From assembly GCF_001592745.1 (NCBI RefSeq), contig NZ_LUKD01000008.1, forward strand, positions 425,545 to 489,544: DNA of 64,000 nucleotides. The letters run 5' to 3'. The notes under the pieces are model-generated. The model was given only the letters and a program-made list of their open reading frames with translations. It was not told where the DNA came from and searched no databases. Each line of letters begins with the position of its first letter. The stretch's first letter is position 1. A program made the translations under genes and the position numbers. The DNA comes from Bdellovibrio bacteriovorus (GTDB lineage: Bacteria; Bdellovibrionota; Bdellovibrionia; Bdellovibrionales; Bdellovibrionaceae). Positions 1 through 5,263 of the stretch are shown one piece after another.

Positions 1-402
1 GAGTATGTTAATAGCATTATGGGCATAAGGTTTGGGTTGGTTTAGTGGAGCTTGAAAAACTATTTCAACTTTTGCAGAAATAGTTTTTACTTTGTTTTTT
101 TCTGACTGAAGGTCGGCACTTAGTAGTTTGTTATTATTTTCTTGAGTTTGTAATTGCTTCTCGAGCTCTAAAGACTTGTTTTTCAGTGTCAGAATCTCAA
201 TTTGATCAGATTTCTGACGATTTTCAGACTCCTGGGATTCTTTATAGGTAAAAAAAGCACCTGTGAATGTTGATACCACAATTAGGAATGAAATTACTTT
301 TAGAATATCCCTAATGCGCGGGTTGTGAGATAAAAATGTGTCTAGCGGCCACTGTAATGCTGCGAGAATACCGCCGATGAGGGTCCAGGCAATTGAATTC
401 AT
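1..402 (-). CDS. Membrane-anchored coiled-coil protein, C-terminus cut by window edge
   Basis: An open frame of 134 codons without a stop runs from an ATG at 402 to the left edge of the window, so only the N-terminal part is seen. The protein starts MNSIAWTLIGGIL, has a hydrophobic segment at about residues 40-55 (VISFLIVVSTFTGAFF), and then a long charged stretch rich in Glu, Lys, Gln and Leu (about 58-110) that reads as coiled coil. It lies 27 bases after the channel-like gene on the same strand, so the two are probably one transcript. I do not recognise the family; a membrane-tethered accessory protein to its neighbour is an inference. Confidence 0.7.
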   Translation of the reverse strand, partial: MNSIAWTLIGGILAALQWPLDTFLSHNPRIRDILKVISFLIVVSTFTGAFFTYKESQESENRQKSDQIEILTLKNKSLELEKQLQTQENNNKLLSADLQSEKNKVKTISAKVEIVFQAPLNQPKPYAHNAINIL

Positions 403-429
403 TTGGTTTGGTTTCGCTTTCTATGTAAG

Positions 430-1461
430 TCAGGCCAATTTTAGAATTTTAGCGACTACGGCAACTACGATTGCGAGATTGAAGTAAGATATCATCATTT
501 GAATCCAAATTAAAAAACGCACGTTATCCGTAATTGGGATGATTTCTGATGGCACGTTGTTTGTGGCAACCATTGTAGACGTATATACGAAGTCTAAGAA
601 TCGTGGTCGCATCATCAATGAATTTAGGTCAAAAATAATTTCTAGATTGTATTTTCCCAACGCTTTAAGCGTCTCTCCGTAAAAGATGTTTTTGAGCCGT
701 TCAATCTCGGGAAAATTTTGATTCTCAATTAATAGGGAATAAGACTCTTGAATCGCTGTGCTGAGTCTTTCAAGCGTAGTTGTTTGGGGTTGAAAGACTT
801 GTTTATGCAGATGTTCAAGGGCGCGTTGAAGGCTACTAAATAGGCGTAGTTCGTCTACACTCATTGGGGGGGATGCGTTGATGACTCTATTAGACATTGC
901 TGTCGCCGAAGGTTCACGAAAATACTCCATCATAATTGGGATTAACATTTCATTTATATTTGAAAGGCCGTTCTCAGTCCCGTTGAACCTAAATTCTATT
1001 TTAAGTTCTCCATACTTTTTAAATTGTTTTTCTATTAGTTGTGATGGGGTTAGCCCAAGCCTACTTATCTCACGTATGGCATCTGGCGTATCGGGATTCT
1101 CTCCGAATTGCCGATATATTGATTTATCTTCAGAAAAGCTGACCCAAGGTGCTTTACTTATTGAATCAGCGTTCTTTTGAAGCCTCAAATCGTTGATGGC
1201 GTCGATCATTAGTGTTGTTTTTAGAGATTCAGAAAAATTGAAAGCTGGAGTCGGGGAGAGTCTACCTATATAGGTTTTGCTGTCGTGAGAGACTGCGCTG
1301 ATGTTTTGCCAGTGAAAAATTAACCAATAAACAACTGCGAATACGGCTATGTTAATTAGAAATAATCCTAAGCAAGTAATAAGCATTGAGATTGGGCTTC
1401 CCCAAATTTGGGAGCCAATATACGAGAGGAGTAATTTTATTTTGAATAGAATAAAACTCAT
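430..1461 (-). CDS. Two-helix membrane protein with ion-channel-like pore and altered selectivity filter
   Basis: This 343-residue protein has a transmembrane helix at about residues 24-49, a soluble region of about 230 residues, and a C-terminal segment (about 287-340) laid out like the Ion_trans_2 pore module: aromatic-rich pore helix (FLDFVYTSTMVAT), filter position, an IPITD turn like the VPxTD of potassium channels, then a last hydrophobic helix. At the filter, the T-x-G-Y-G of potassium channels is replaced by T-N-N-V-P (residues 300-304). The resemblance is by eye; the family between the helices is unknown to me. It could be a channel of other selectivity or a dead relative. It is upstream of the coiled-coil membrane gene and likely co-transcribed with it. 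The A+T-rich composition fits the accessory island. Confidence 0.75.
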   Translation of the reverse strand: MSFILFKIKLLLSYIGSQIWGSPISMLITCLGLFLINIAVFAVVYWLIFHWQNISAVSHDSKTYIGRLSPTPAFNFSESLKTTLMIDAINDLRLQKNADSISKAPWVSFSEDKSIYRQFGENPDTPDAIREISRLGLTPSQLIEKQFKKYGELKIEFRFNGTENGLSNINEMLIPIMMEYFREPSATAMSNRVINASPPMSVDELRLFSSLQRALEHLHKQVFQPQTTTLERLSTAIQESYSLLIENQNFPEIERLKNIFYGETLKALGKYNLEIIFDLNSLMMRPRFLDFVYTSTMVATNNVPSEIIPITDNVRFLIWIQMMISYFNLAIVVAVVAKILKLA

Positions 1462-1960
1462 TCATTTAACCTTTTTCGAGGACCAATATTACGTAATTTC
1501 TGGCAACTGCTGTATTTAGCTAATTGTCATCTGGCAACTTCATTTTGAATATTCACGAATGGAAGACTCGAAGTTTAAAGTTCTCTGGATAATAAAGATT
1601 TTTACGCACGATGTAATTTGATATTAGTTTATGGTTGGTCGCGTTATGATTTTGAATTGGTTGCTACGGGCCATTCCGTGTCCGTATTTCGTACTTAACG
1701 TTCGTAAATCGGACTTCGATCGCGCAATGACTGAATATATCGGATTAGCAGTAGGATCACTTCTTGAAGTATTTTGATTTGATGAATAGGTCATGAATTT
1801 AAATTAAACGGTTATCTTTACCATTCTGTGATTGCAGATTGTGCTTCTCTTGCTAGATATAGGTCTGGCGCAAGACGGCCAACTGCACAACAAATCGGCA
1901 ATTGTTTGATTTTATTAAACTCATAACTGTATATAGCCGTTATACCTCTTGGAGGAATGA
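1462..1960. other. 500-base intergenic region between divergent accessory genes
   Basis: This A+T-rich stretch separates the leftward channel-like gene from the rightward two-gene operon and must contain both promoters. I see no RNA gene or strong hairpin. A 48-codon frame at 1631-1777 has no ribosome binding site and I do not call it. The last bases carry a clear Shine-Dalgarno, TTGGAGGAA at 1949-1957, just before the ATG at 1961. Confidence 0.5.
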
Positions 1961-2881
1961 ATGGCAAATTCACATTTTTTTAACTACTACACGATCAGAG
2001 TAAAAGAAAAACGCAAAGAGGGTAATGTCATCATCCGTAAATTTGGTGATGAAGAGTGGGATCTCTTCCCGATCATGCAAACATACTTTGGAAACATGAA
2101 TGAGTTCGCTAAAGATGAGCTTAAAAAGTCCATGTCCGGTAAGGATATAATGAAAGAGGATCAAGCGAACAATCTATTCTACGGGATAATTCAATACGGT
2201 AACTATGGAATGCAGCAAGATATTGCTCATAAAGATGGAGAAGTTACCTATAACATGAGTGAAAATGAGGGGCCTATTAAAAAACATTTTTACCTGATCT
2301 TCATTCCACCAAATTCAACGACCGGAGCGATGATATTGCATAGCATTGGGGCGGATGGAATATCAAGTCTTGTCCAGGATGGAATTACTACGATCTTTCG
2401 CGAAATTGCGCCAAAATTTATATTAGAAATAGAGCCTGTTATGTTTAATCTAAAGGCGCAGGATGAAGTTTTTCTAAACAGTATAACGGTAAACGCTTTT
2501 GAGCGGCCTTCAAAAGTAAAAACAAACAAAACTATTGGCTCCAGAGCTAAAAAAATAGCATCGATAACGATGAACACCGCTACCAAACAGGGAATTTTAA
2601 GTAAGATATTTAAATCAGAGAATGTTGCTGAAACAGTATTGGATGAAATAAATCCGGTAATTTCGCTAAAAAATGCGGATAAATATAATACCGAAGTTAA
2701 ATTGGACATTGATATTCTTGGAAAGAATAAGACGCTCAAAATTAACCGAGAATTTAAATATAGTACGTCAGAAGATATGACTGGTCGTCTGGAAATGGTT
2801 GCAGGTGTGCCAACTCTCGAGTCACTGCATAAAGAAGGCGTGGGTAGTTTAAAAGTTTTAAGAAGATTAGGGGTAATTTGA
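1961..2881 (+). CDS. Uncharacterised soluble protein, first gene of a two-gene accessory operon
   Basis: A 306-residue protein with no signal peptide or membrane helix. I do not recognise it. Visible traits are a mixed alpha/beta composition, a hydrophobic beta-like core near residues 109-145 (HFYLIFIPPNS, then GADGISSLVQDGITTIF) and a basic linker around 178-200. The start is fixed by GGAGG five bases upstream of the ATG. Its TGA stop directly abuts the ATG of the next gene, a four-helix membrane protein, so the two are translationally coupled and probably act together. A+T-rich codon use resembles its accessory neighbours. A soluble sensor paired with a membrane effector is a plausible arrangement, but this is inference. 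Confidence 0.8.
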   Translation: MANSHFFNYYTIRVKEKRKEGNVIIRKFGDEEWDLFPIMQTYFGNMNEFAKDELKKSMSGKDIMKEDQANNLFYGIIQYGNYGMQQDIAHKDGEVTYNMSENEGPIKKHFYLIFIPPNSTTGAMILHSIGADGISSLVQDGITTIFREIAPKFILEIEPVMFNLKAQDEVFLNSITVNAFERPSKVKTNKTIGSRAKKIASITMNTATKQGILSKIFKSENVAETVLDEINPVISLKNADKYNTEVKLDIDILGKNKTLKINREFKYSTSEDMTGRLEMVAGVPTLESLHKEGVGSLKVLRRLGVI

Positions 2882-3481
2882 ATGGAAGTGTTCTCTGCGC
2901 CTTTTGAAATCCTGTCCCATTATAATAGAATCGTTAAAGAGAATTATAATGGAATCTATCCTAGATCAGAGAAATTCTGCTTCATTGCTCTACCGATTAT
3001 AATGAGTTTTTGCGTTGCTCTGATGTCTCATGGGAATATTTCAACAGCAACTTCGGAGAATTTATTGACCATTCACGGGATTTTTTTAAGCGTTCTTGTT
3101 GCGTCGTATGCTCCATTTTTAGATTTTCTTAAACCAGGTGCCACAATCACAGCGAAGGCCACCGCTGAAGTTTCAGATCAAGAGTACCTCTCGACTGAAT
3201 ATGTGCTTTCAAAGGCCGGTGGAACGGTCAGGAAACTACTATTCATTTCAAATTCATTATGTATTGTTTTGTCCTTGGGAATCATTGTTTTGTTATGCAT
3301 TCAGCCTATAGTTTGTTCAGACTTAATTCCATGGTTTTTCGATATCGGATACATGAAGGGTCAACCGGTTATATCATTTATCTATTCGTGGACCGTTTAT
3401 GGATTAGTTATTACAAATGGATATGTACTGCTGCGCATCGTCGCTATTATGGCCAATAAAATCCTTACTGAGATGGATTAA
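2882..3481 (+). CDS. Uncharacterised four-helix membrane protein, second gene of operon
   Basis: A 199-residue protein with four predicted transmembrane segments at about residues 32-48, 61-80, 119-141 and 162-190. A polar loop of about 35 residues separates helices 2 and 3. The ATG follows the previous stop with no intervening base, which indicates translational coupling. No enzymatic motif is seen and I do not recognise the family. Small multi-helix proteins paired with a soluble partner occur as membrane effectors in several phage defence systems, but nothing in the sequence proves this here. A rho-independent terminator follows about 105 bases downstream. Confidence 0.8.
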   Translation: MEVFSAPFEILSHYNRIVKENYNGIYPRSEKFCFIALPIIMSFCVALMSHGNISTATSENLLTIHGIFLSVLVASYAPFLDFLKPGATITAKATAEVSDQEYLSTEYVLSKAGGTVRKLLFISNSLCIVLSLGIIVLLCIQPIVCSDLIPWFFDIGYMKGQPVISFIYSWTVYGLVITNGYVLLRIVAIMANKILTEMD

Positions 3482-3585
3482 GGCTAAAGATGGTTTTCCT
3501 CTAGTTGCAATTGAGTTCTAAACTCGTCCCATACGCTCCGCCATTTTTTAGCGAAAATGGCCGACCCTACAACGATGGAAATCAA

Positions 3586-3611
3586 AAGGAAGCCTTGAGC
3601 TTCCTTTTTTT
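3586..3611 (+). terminator. Rho-independent terminator after the two-gene operon
   Basis: An 8-base stem AAGGAAGC / GCTTCCTT with a 5-base loop (CTTGA) is followed by a run of seven T. It lies downstream of the rightward operon and before the convergent HNH gene. Confidence 0.85.
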
Positions 3612-3669
3612 ATTTGTGGGTTTGTAGTCCATAGGTTGGTTTAAGTCGTAAGGTCCACTTTTCTCAAAC

Positions 3670-4500
3670 CTAAACTGATCTTTTCTTATTTAGGTCTTGG
3701 TTTGTCCTATGTTTCCAAATTATCGCTAGGAAGTGATCACCATAAAGGCGAAGTTTTTCTGATGTTACACCAATTATGTTTGCCATTGATGCGGCGTCAT
3801 CTGGCATTTGCCGAGCCATCTCTTCAAGAGTGAAGTTTTTAAATACTAAATAGGCGGGAATGTTTTGCTCTATAGCAAGTCGGTTCCTTTCTTGCCTCAA
3901 ATCGGAAAAAAGTTTCTGAGAATAATCTTCTGAGTATCTGTGGTTGCTATTCACAGACGTCTGAACGACAAATGTGCGCCTAACTGGGGAGTATTTATTA
4001 GTTCTAAAGCTAAAGTTAAAGTTAGATGGCGCTTCCAAAAGATAGCCTTTGTAGTCCTCGCATAATACACGTTTTTGTTCTTTAAATGTGGGGTATCGGC
4101 CGCTTTTCTTCTTTTTCCAGTCCAGCCAAGCGTGAAATAATTCATGCTGATGTCGGTCCATTACGCACAGATTTCTTAATGTGTTATCAGATCTTTTTCC
4201 ATTTATGTGATGTACAACCTCATTGGGAAATAGATCCCGTTTCAAAACTCTTTTTGCAATGAGCCTGTGTTCATATTCGTTAGCCCCTCGAGCAAAGATA
4301 TAGCCACCTCTATCGCTTCTCTTGCCTCTAAAAAGTTTCAACAACGGAACAGCAACACTCAAGGTTGCCAAACTCACCCAGAAAATTTTTGAAATTAGGC
4401 TCGTACCTGGAATAAGTACCATTGCAACGGCGCAGACGATCGTCAGTGTTCGAGCCATGTTCACAAGGAATCTTTTCAGCTTTATTAGAAACCAGCGCAT
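3670..4500 (-). CDS. Membrane-anchored HNH nuclease fused to an HRDC domain
   Basis: A 276-residue protein with three parts. Residues about 14-57 contain two hydrophobic helices, so it is membrane-anchored. Residues about 76-125 form an HNH module of the phage/homing type: YEHRLIAKRVL, then VVHHING (H97, H98), SDN at 104-106, NL at 110-111, and H117/H119/H123. Residues about 189-265 match a RecQ-type HRDC domain: YSQKLFSDLR, P215 with YLVF, TLEEMARQMP, GVTSEKLRLYG and a final hydrophobic helix. HNH enzymes cut DNA at a metal site; HRDC domains bind nucleic acid in RecQ and RNase D. I know of no described protein with this order of parts. It is monocistronic, with A+T-rich composition. Function in nucleic-acid cleavage is well supported; a role in defence is inference. 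Confidence 0.85.
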   Translation of the reverse strand: MRWFLIKLKRFLVNMARTLTIVCAVAMVLIPGTSLISKIFWVSLATLSVAVPLLKLFRGKRSDRGGYIFARGANEYEHRLIAKRVLKRDLFPNEVVHHINGKRSDNTLRNLCVMDRHQHELFHAWLDWKKKKSGRYPTFKEQKRVLCEDYKGYLLEAPSNFNFSFRTNKYSPVRRTFVVQTSVNSNHRYSEDYSQKLFSDLRQERNRLAIEQNIPAYLVFKNFTLEEMARQMPDDAASMANIIGVTSEKLRLYGDHFLAIIWKHRTNQDLNKKRSV

Positions 4501-4837
4501 AATAGCTGATCGACATTTTTCAGATATAAATAAACTTTATTTATAGTATTTTGACTTTAAGGCAGATTTTTTCTGATATGAAACGAGGAAATGTAATTAC
4601 TTGGGACATCATACAGATATGTTTGGTTTTGATACGACAGATGTCTCTGCAATTTTAGTTTTTGATTTCGTACTTTCCCTCGTACACCTGTGCGGTCCCC
4701 TCCAGATGAAATGGTTTCCTTTTGCCCGTTTTGCTTAGACGGTGAGCAATTTTTGGTGGTATGGAATTGGCTTATATAAAATACATCTGATTTCTTGGAG
4801 TCATTGCGATACCAAGGCGATCTTTTATAGGAGCAAC
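4501..4837. other. Intergenic region, divergent promoters only
   Basis: About 340 A+T-rich bases lie between the leftward HNH gene and the rightward small secreted protein. No supported gene, RNA or repeat is seen. A possible leftward -10 (TATAAA within the T-rich stretch near 4540) and a strong ribosome binding site at 4829-4833 are the only signals. Confidence 0.4.
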
Positions 4838-5263
4838 ATGAAGAATCTAATTTCAACTTTTGTGATCATCATGGCGACATCTTCTTCGGCTTTTGCAGGA
4901 ACGATGTCTTTCACTAAAGATTTCATCGCGTCTACTACCTTATCTTTGGACAACGAGCCTGGGAAAAGAATAACCATCCAGCCTTACGAAACATTTTCTA
5001 GCACTGGATATGGTCGTGACGGAATTAGTGCGTTTCCTACGTTCCGGTTGGTCTTCACTCATCCTGGTATCGACTATTCAAGCGGCTATAAAAATATTGA
5101 GCCAGAACAGTTGAATATTTACTGGGAGGGTCAATGTGAAAACGGTGCCAAAGTTTTTAAAGGTGAAATGGTTTCTTACGAAGTGCTTCGAGTTGTGATG
5201 CACAATAATTCTGGCAAAGTCAGTATTCACGGTGTTGGACAAGTAGTAGGGGACTGCAACTAA
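4838..5263 (+). CDS. Small secreted protein, unknown function
   Basis: A 141-residue protein with a classical signal peptide (MKNLISTFVIIMATSSSAFA, cleavage after residue 20). The mature part of about 120 residues is beta-rich and has two cysteines, one near the middle (EGQC) and one at the end (GDCN), which could pair in the periplasm. The frame stays open upstream to 4742, but the ATG at 4838 has AGGAG at 4829-4833 and begins the signal peptide exactly, so it is chosen. I do not recognise the family. Confidence 0.8.
   Translation: MKNLISTFVIIMATSSSAFAGTMSFTKDFIASTTLSLDNEPGKRITIQPYETFSSTGYGRDGISAFPTFRLVFTHPGIDYSSGYKNIEPEQLNIYWEGQCENGAKVFKGEMVSYEVLRVVMHNNSGKVSIHGVGQVVGDCN

Follow-up and report, generated by a model that had tools for sequence, protein, structure and literature searches.

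A candidate membrane-tethered HNH nuclease with a RecQ-type HRDC domain at a variable tRNA-Asp locus of Bdellovibrio bacteriovorus

The window (the whole 64,000-nt stretch of the B. bacteriovorus contig that was analyzed) contained near its left end a gene that was predicted to encode a membrane hairpin, an HNH nuclease, and an HRDC domain in a single chain (Table 1). This gene stands alone, flanked by convergent and divergent genes. A tRNA-Asp gene is located 1.0-1.1 kb left of the window (L152:12455-12531), and the DNA that extends from it to about position 5263 is AT-rich (GC 0.383 for window positions 1-5263 vs. 0.466 for 20000-64000) and encodes membrane proteins and proteins of unknown function. 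A repeat of the sequence downstream of tRNA-Asp lies near the HNH-HRDC gene on its 3′ side and is likely the relic of an attachment site as well as a terminator between convergent genes. The two-gene pair that converges on the HNH-HRDC gene is context and not an operon partner of it. Neither protein of this pair had a Pfam or PADLOC match above the cut-off, and among 65 other genomes of the family only one encoded a relative of the 306-aa protein (22% identity); the pair may represent a conflict module of two genes that has yet to be described. Left of the window (L152:5571-9551), a tail-fiber-like, repetitive protein of 1326 aa with a C-terminal Peptidase_S74 intramolecular chaperone was also observed.

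Table 1. Features of the HNH-HRDC locus in window coordinates.
Feature	Position	Strand	Remarks
343-aa membrane protein	430..1461	-	Same island; context
Two-gene pair, 306 aa + 199 aa (the latter a multi-pass membrane protein)	1961..3481	+	Same island; convergent with the HNH-HRDC gene
Degenerate repeat of the downstream/terminator sequence of tRNA-Asp	3526..3625	.	Matches the G007 copy at 84% over 104 bp
HNH-HRDC CDS	3670..4500	-	276 aa, ATG start; TM hairpin - HNH_3 - linker - HRDC
HRDC domain, residues 189-268	3697..3936	-	Pfam, 1wud match, model; Y217 corresponds to Y555 of E. coli RecQ
Disordered linker, residues 159-188	3937..4026	-	pLDDT under 50; 39% identity to the nearest relative
HNH nuclease, residues 76-157	4030..4275	-	Pfam, PHROG, family alignment
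Membrane hairpin, residues 2-58	4327..4497	-	Hydropathy, charge, AlphaFold2 model
GTCGATCAG box	4506..4514	-	5 nt upstream of the ATG; degenerate variant of the family's FliA-like -10 box

The nearest genome (G007), in which the orn product was 100% identical, retained both flanks of the island and lacked the island segment; its position was occupied by an SF1 helicase related to MkoA (PADLOC E = 4e-50; L200:17533-19239). A MkoA-like SF1 helicase also lies nearby at the tRNA-Asp locus of G023 (L202:5209-6912), and in G021 an HSDR_N-AAA-S1 protein of 885 aa is located between two tRNA-downstream repeats (L204:3128-5782). The HNH-HRDC gene is thus cargo of a variable tRNA-Asp locus, at which the cargo of sister species is of defense type. 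Across Bdellovibrio (G007, G023, and G021), this locus was observed to be a cargo hotspot. G007 harbors an insert of about 10 kb (L200:5171-15634), probably a small prophage, in which a phage integrase and a HerA/FtsK-type ATPase lie beside small uncharacterized proteins. A tRNA gene was found within 3 kb at five of 18 family loci vs. 4.3% expected (P about 1e-3), a post hoc value that is optimistic because the pattern was noticed first and tested later. The original prediction had cited defense neighbors as support; these were not found, as no immediate neighbor of the HNH-HRDC gene matched a known defense family or system in PADLOC. Separate fusion loci shared no conserved operon, and only the orthologous locus of two relatives described below (G014 and G018) was syntenic.

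An AlphaFold2 model of the 276-aa protein, built with 19 family members as input (mean pLDDT 84.8) and superseding a first model from 5 sequences (pLDDT 70), placed the membrane hairpin in helices 2-29 and 35-58, the HNH beta-beta-alpha unit in strands 94-98 and 111-115 and helix 116-133, a disordered linker at 159-188, and the HRDC domain at 191-275. The model and the Pfam and PHROG matches given below confirmed that hydrophobic helices, an HNH site, and a complete HRDC domain are carried by one open reading frame, as originally predicted. Kyte-Doolittle hydropathy over 19 residues peaked at 2.14 (residues 18-36) and 1.93 (residues 39-57), and the charge of the protein was +5 at the N-terminus and +4 after helix 2. 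Net charges of the two-helix family members ranged from +4 to +6 before helix 1, from 0 to +2 between the helices, and from +3 to +6 after helix 2, and the one-helix member L047 had an N-terminus of -4 and a post-helix stretch of +8. Both charge patterns follow the positive-inside rule; therefore, the HNH domain is predicted to be cytoplasmic, and both termini together with the nuclease would lie on the cytoplasmic side of the inner membrane.

The HNH_3 profile (PF13392) matched residues 78-120 with 25.9 bits against a cut-off of 24.8 (E = 7.7e-6). Eight PHROG HNH families matched the same stretch (E 3e-12 to 5e-4), and 11 residues (H78, R79, R88, H97, H98, N100, D105, N106, N110, H119, and H123) were invariant in an alignment of 19 family members. 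Given the alignment and the PHROG matches, the narrow Pfam margin no longer appears to leave doubt about this domain. Pfam, the alignment, and the model agreed in placing a HHxN...DN...NL...H motif on a beta-beta-alpha fold, as befits a member of HNH_3. Fold searches with the model matched the HRDC domain and gave no HNH match, and the HNH assignment is thus sequence-based. The active site had been read originally as H97/H98 with N106 and H117; the first three of these residues stood as invariant, whereas H117 was variable, and the predicted third catalytic histidine is H119 instead. Beyond the HNH core, the protein contained a tail (W..W..GRYP...L..GILL) whose general form, W..W..GxYP...L..GILL, was common to nearly all family members and missing from the phage HNH_3 proteins compared. 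A decayed family copy in G012 (L038:6163-6528) has kept a W..W..YP..GILL tail and lost the HNH core.

The HRDC profile (PF00570) matched residues 195-261 over profile positions 2-68 of 68 (E = 9.4e-19, 67.6 bits, cut-off 23.8). The nearest solved structure by sequence was the HRDC domain of E. coli RecQ (1wud; 2e-14, residues 189-268), on which the modeled domain was superposed with a TM-score of 0.93 and an rmsd of 0.6 Å. The full-length profile match and the fold identify this region as a genuine HRDC domain and bear out the complete, RecQ-like domain that had been proposed at about residues 189-265. Y217 was invariant in all five fusions and aligned with Y555 of E. coli RecQ (a numbering of our own calculation, obtained by counting backwards from the C-terminus of 1wud), the mutation of which abolishes binding of ssDNA by the RecQ HRDC (PMC4464074). 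Because this tyrosine is conserved, the HRDC domain of the window protein would be expected to bind DNA. It was 44% identical to the HRDC domain of E. coli RecQ over 73 positions vs. 30% to that of the RecQ that the window genome also retains, and the tree did not single out a donor of the fusion HRDC. No helicase was matched by Pfam in the 276 aa, and RecQ models aligned with the HRDC end only; the protein is therefore not a RecQ helicase.

A search for other proteins of the same kind, as suggested in the original prediction, recovered the TM-HNH-HRDC order in four further genomes of Bdellovibrionota, namely G014 (58-60% identity) and G076, G069, and G101 (about 38-43%), the named counterparts of the last three being Bdellovibrionales or Bdellovibrionota MAGs. 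Loss of the helices or of the HNH histidines in homologs had been named as grounds for rejection, and was seen in none of these four full-length relatives. A survey of 144 genomes of the class found the fusion in five; most Bdellovibrio lack it. A larger TM-HNH set without HRDC was spread across Bdellovibrionota, so that most family members lack this domain. Searches of phages, plasmids, and viral sequences yielded HNH-only or RecQ matches and no combination of HNH with HRDC; nor was a fusion found outside Bdellovibrionota, in a scan of genome contigs that used two conserved HNH peptide patterns and that diverged fusions could escape. An ORF of an Oscillospiraceae MAG (L060, 28% over residues 72-265) was considered as an HNH-HRDC protein and rejected, since apparent helix-turn-helix repeats, and not an HRDC domain, accompany its HNH domain.

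In a tree of only 73 columns, the five fusion HRDCs formed a single clade (97/88 support), which indicates that HRDC probably joined once, and the fusion appears to have arisen within the wider TM-HNH family of Bdellovibrionota. In the HNH tree, the protein of G018, a Bdellovibrio sp. of the same genus as the window genome, has no HRDC and paired with the G014 fusion (99/90); a tree forcing the fusions together was rejected (AU p = 0.00016). G014 and G018 represent the same locus, with neighbors of 338 aa and 174 aa common to both. In G018, a stop codon ends the frame past the linker and is immediately followed by the start of an OmdA/YdeI gene (L033:4829-5413), at the point where G014 continues into HRDC. 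This comparison points to at least one loss of HRDC, that at the orthologous G018 locus; G018 is a MAG, in which an assembly error is possible. Since G018 holds an ortholog of the G014 fusion without HRDC, the domain would be dispensable in at least one lineage. Identity between the window protein and its nearest relative (G014) was 78% in HRDC, 71% in HNH, and 39% in both the membrane part and the linker, and HRDC was thus the best-conserved part. Synonymous sites were saturated between these two nearest fusions, so that dN/dS can be read only qualitatively; saturation at a protein identity of 71-78% points to purifying selection on HNH and HRDC. The joining of HRDC to a membrane nuclease, as read in the original prediction, is thus supported as a combination that has been kept, by the single HRDC clade and by purifying selection. 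Family members with HNH alone and those that also carry HRDC provide a ready comparison for the contribution of this domain, and they include two orthologs that differ in its presence.

A CGAT[AC] box, typically CCGATAAG, was located at most 30 nt before the start codon in 14 of 20 family genes vs. 19 of 165 control ORFs, a set that included family genes and unverified starts (Fisher 4e-8, a value that is likewise optimistic because testing followed the observation). The better family promoters also contained TTCAG, CTAAT, or CTCAG about 16 nt upstream of the box. FliA, probably the regulator of the attack phase in B. bacteriovorus, has the consensus TTAAG-N16-CCGATA (PMC3627812). The family box and its upstream element match this consensus, and the family may be under FliA control. 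The promoter of the window gene itself had a poor -35 element (TTTAT vs. TTAAG) and a -10 element of TCGATC vs. CCGATA. CGATAAG-N4-12-ATG occurred 98 times in the window genome vs. 24 times for the reversed pattern, and the box therefore marks a general promoter class in this genome. The distance from the family box to the ATG would suit leaderless transcripts. Genome-wide, FliA-type promoters often seem to lie directly against start codons, which suggests that leaderless attack-phase transcripts may be frequent in the window genome.

The role that we tentatively favor, at a confidence just short of even, is that of a stand-alone membrane-tethered DNA endonuclease that restricts incoming DNA. 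The two N-terminal helices would fix the protein in the inner membrane with both ends in the cytoplasm, and a flexible 30-residue linker would hold the RecQ-type HRDC, which may grip single-stranded or partly unwound DNA and offer it to the HNH active site. The HRDC domain of RecQ prefers single-stranded or partly unwound DNA, a preference that would fit the single strands that enter during transformation or conjugation. The tether would allow cutting only along the inner side of the membrane; entering DNA (phage, conjugating, or transforming) could thus be cut and the nucleoid spared. A FliA-type promoter would probably confine most of the synthesis of this protein to the attack phase, when the cells swim freely. 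The view that it serves to restrict incoming DNA is consistent with the predicted topology, with the analogy to SNIPE discussed below, and with a variable tRNA-Asp island whose sister cargo is of defense type. The patchy presence in the class is counted in its favor, whereas the lack of a recognized defense neighbor, the unshared neighbors, the many relatives without HRDC, and the weak promoter of the window gene are counted against it. No sensing part or rule for self and non-self besides location was visible in the protein. It is more doubtful that the protein is a phylum-specific, single-gene immune device of the attack-phase regulon, in which HRDC catches DNA crossing the inner membrane and the SNIPE design has been reached independently.

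Restriction of the family to Bdellovibrionota in all scans and the FliA-like box would also suit a predation enzyme, i.e., an attack-phase inner-membrane nuclease with which DNA from prey or imported DNA is cut so that it can be taken up or its nucleotides salvaged. However, the charge pattern places the nuclease in the predator cytoplasm, outside the prey, the absence from most Bdellovibrio is ill-suited to a general predation function, and the window copy sits in an island; such a role is considered unlikely. A membrane-localized, structure-specific nuclease for self DNA (junctions and stalled forks), to which HRDC would lend a structure preference as in RecQ, is quite unlikely. The HRDC domain is under strong purifying selection, and some RecQ and BLM HRDCs help to recognize Holliday junctions (discussed in PMC4464074), but the gene is patchily distributed, lies on an island, and can be dispensed with by close relatives, no repair genes adjoin it, and the genome keeps its own RecQ.

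The mobile setting of the gene invites two other explanations. HNH_3 is a homing or phage type of HNH, and the statistical proximity of family loci to tRNA genes could reflect a selfish or homing-type gene that was captured near tRNA genes and has no host function. This appears improbable for a stand-alone ORF in which no intron or intein was seen and in which the hairpin, the promoter box, and HRDC are conserved without an evident homing role; moreover, the gene-free locus of G007 holds other cargo and not a clean uncut site. Alternatively, the protein might be a membrane-tethered superinfection-exclusion factor of a mobile island that guards the element of the island rather than the host, as the gene adjoins a tRNA-downstream repeat within AT-rich cargo of uncharacterized membrane proteins. 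This is highly improbable, however, since the family members L032/L033 occupy an ordinary locus that is common to different species with no visible element, and no example was found in phages, plasmids, or viral contigs.

The proposal of a new domain order stood within the literature and collections searched: neither HNH-HRDC nor TM-HNH-HRDC was found described in the literature, and every example in the collections came from Bdellovibrionota. HNH and HRDC have each been described before, as have nucleases tethered to membranes; what would be new, to our knowledge, is the combination and its apparent restriction to one phylum. Little seems to have been described on the resistance of Bdellovibrio and its kin to phages or foreign DNA, as a literature search yielded nothing on point.

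The window protein shares with RecQ helicases a C-terminal HRDC of the same fold with the same DNA-binding tyrosine, but it lacks the helicase core, the RQC, and the zinc-binding domain, and its HRDC is joined to a nuclease and to a membrane anchor. If the favored reading is true, this would be the first case known to us in which an HRDC outside helicases and RNase D serves as the DNA grip of a restriction nuclease. The HNH_3 core is common to free-standing phage-type nucleases (PHROGs 15471, 10730, and others), to which the window protein adds the hairpin, the W..W..GRYP..GILL tail, and HRDC, and it is chromosomal rather than phage-borne. ZorE of Zorya type II is likewise an HNH nuclease of a membrane-based defense system, although the similarity lies in the HNH core only (E = 1.6e-3); ZorA/ZorB motor genes were not adjacent to the window gene, which therefore does not belong to Zorya type II. 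The closest parallel in design is SNIPE (DUF4041, TM + GIY-YIG nuclease), an anti-injection system that was experimentally shown to cut phage DNA during injection and that is toxic to the host without its TM anchor (PMC13190303). DUF4041 and GIY-YIG were not detected by Pfam in the window protein, which is thus not a SNIPE member; the two are unrelated in sequence, with HNH here in place of GIY-YIG and HRDC in place of DUF4041, and the order here is TM-nuclease-DNA-binding, whereas that of SNIPE is TM-DNA-binding-nuclease. Both are nevertheless single genes that combine, here by prediction, an N-terminal anchor, a cytoplasmic DNA-binding domain, and a nuclease in one chain, and in both the anchor is poorly and the nuclease highly conserved. 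If restriction of incoming DNA is its true role, the HNH-HRDC protein would represent a second, unrelated example of the SNIPE principle, in which membrane location, rather than sequence or modification, marks DNA as foreign.
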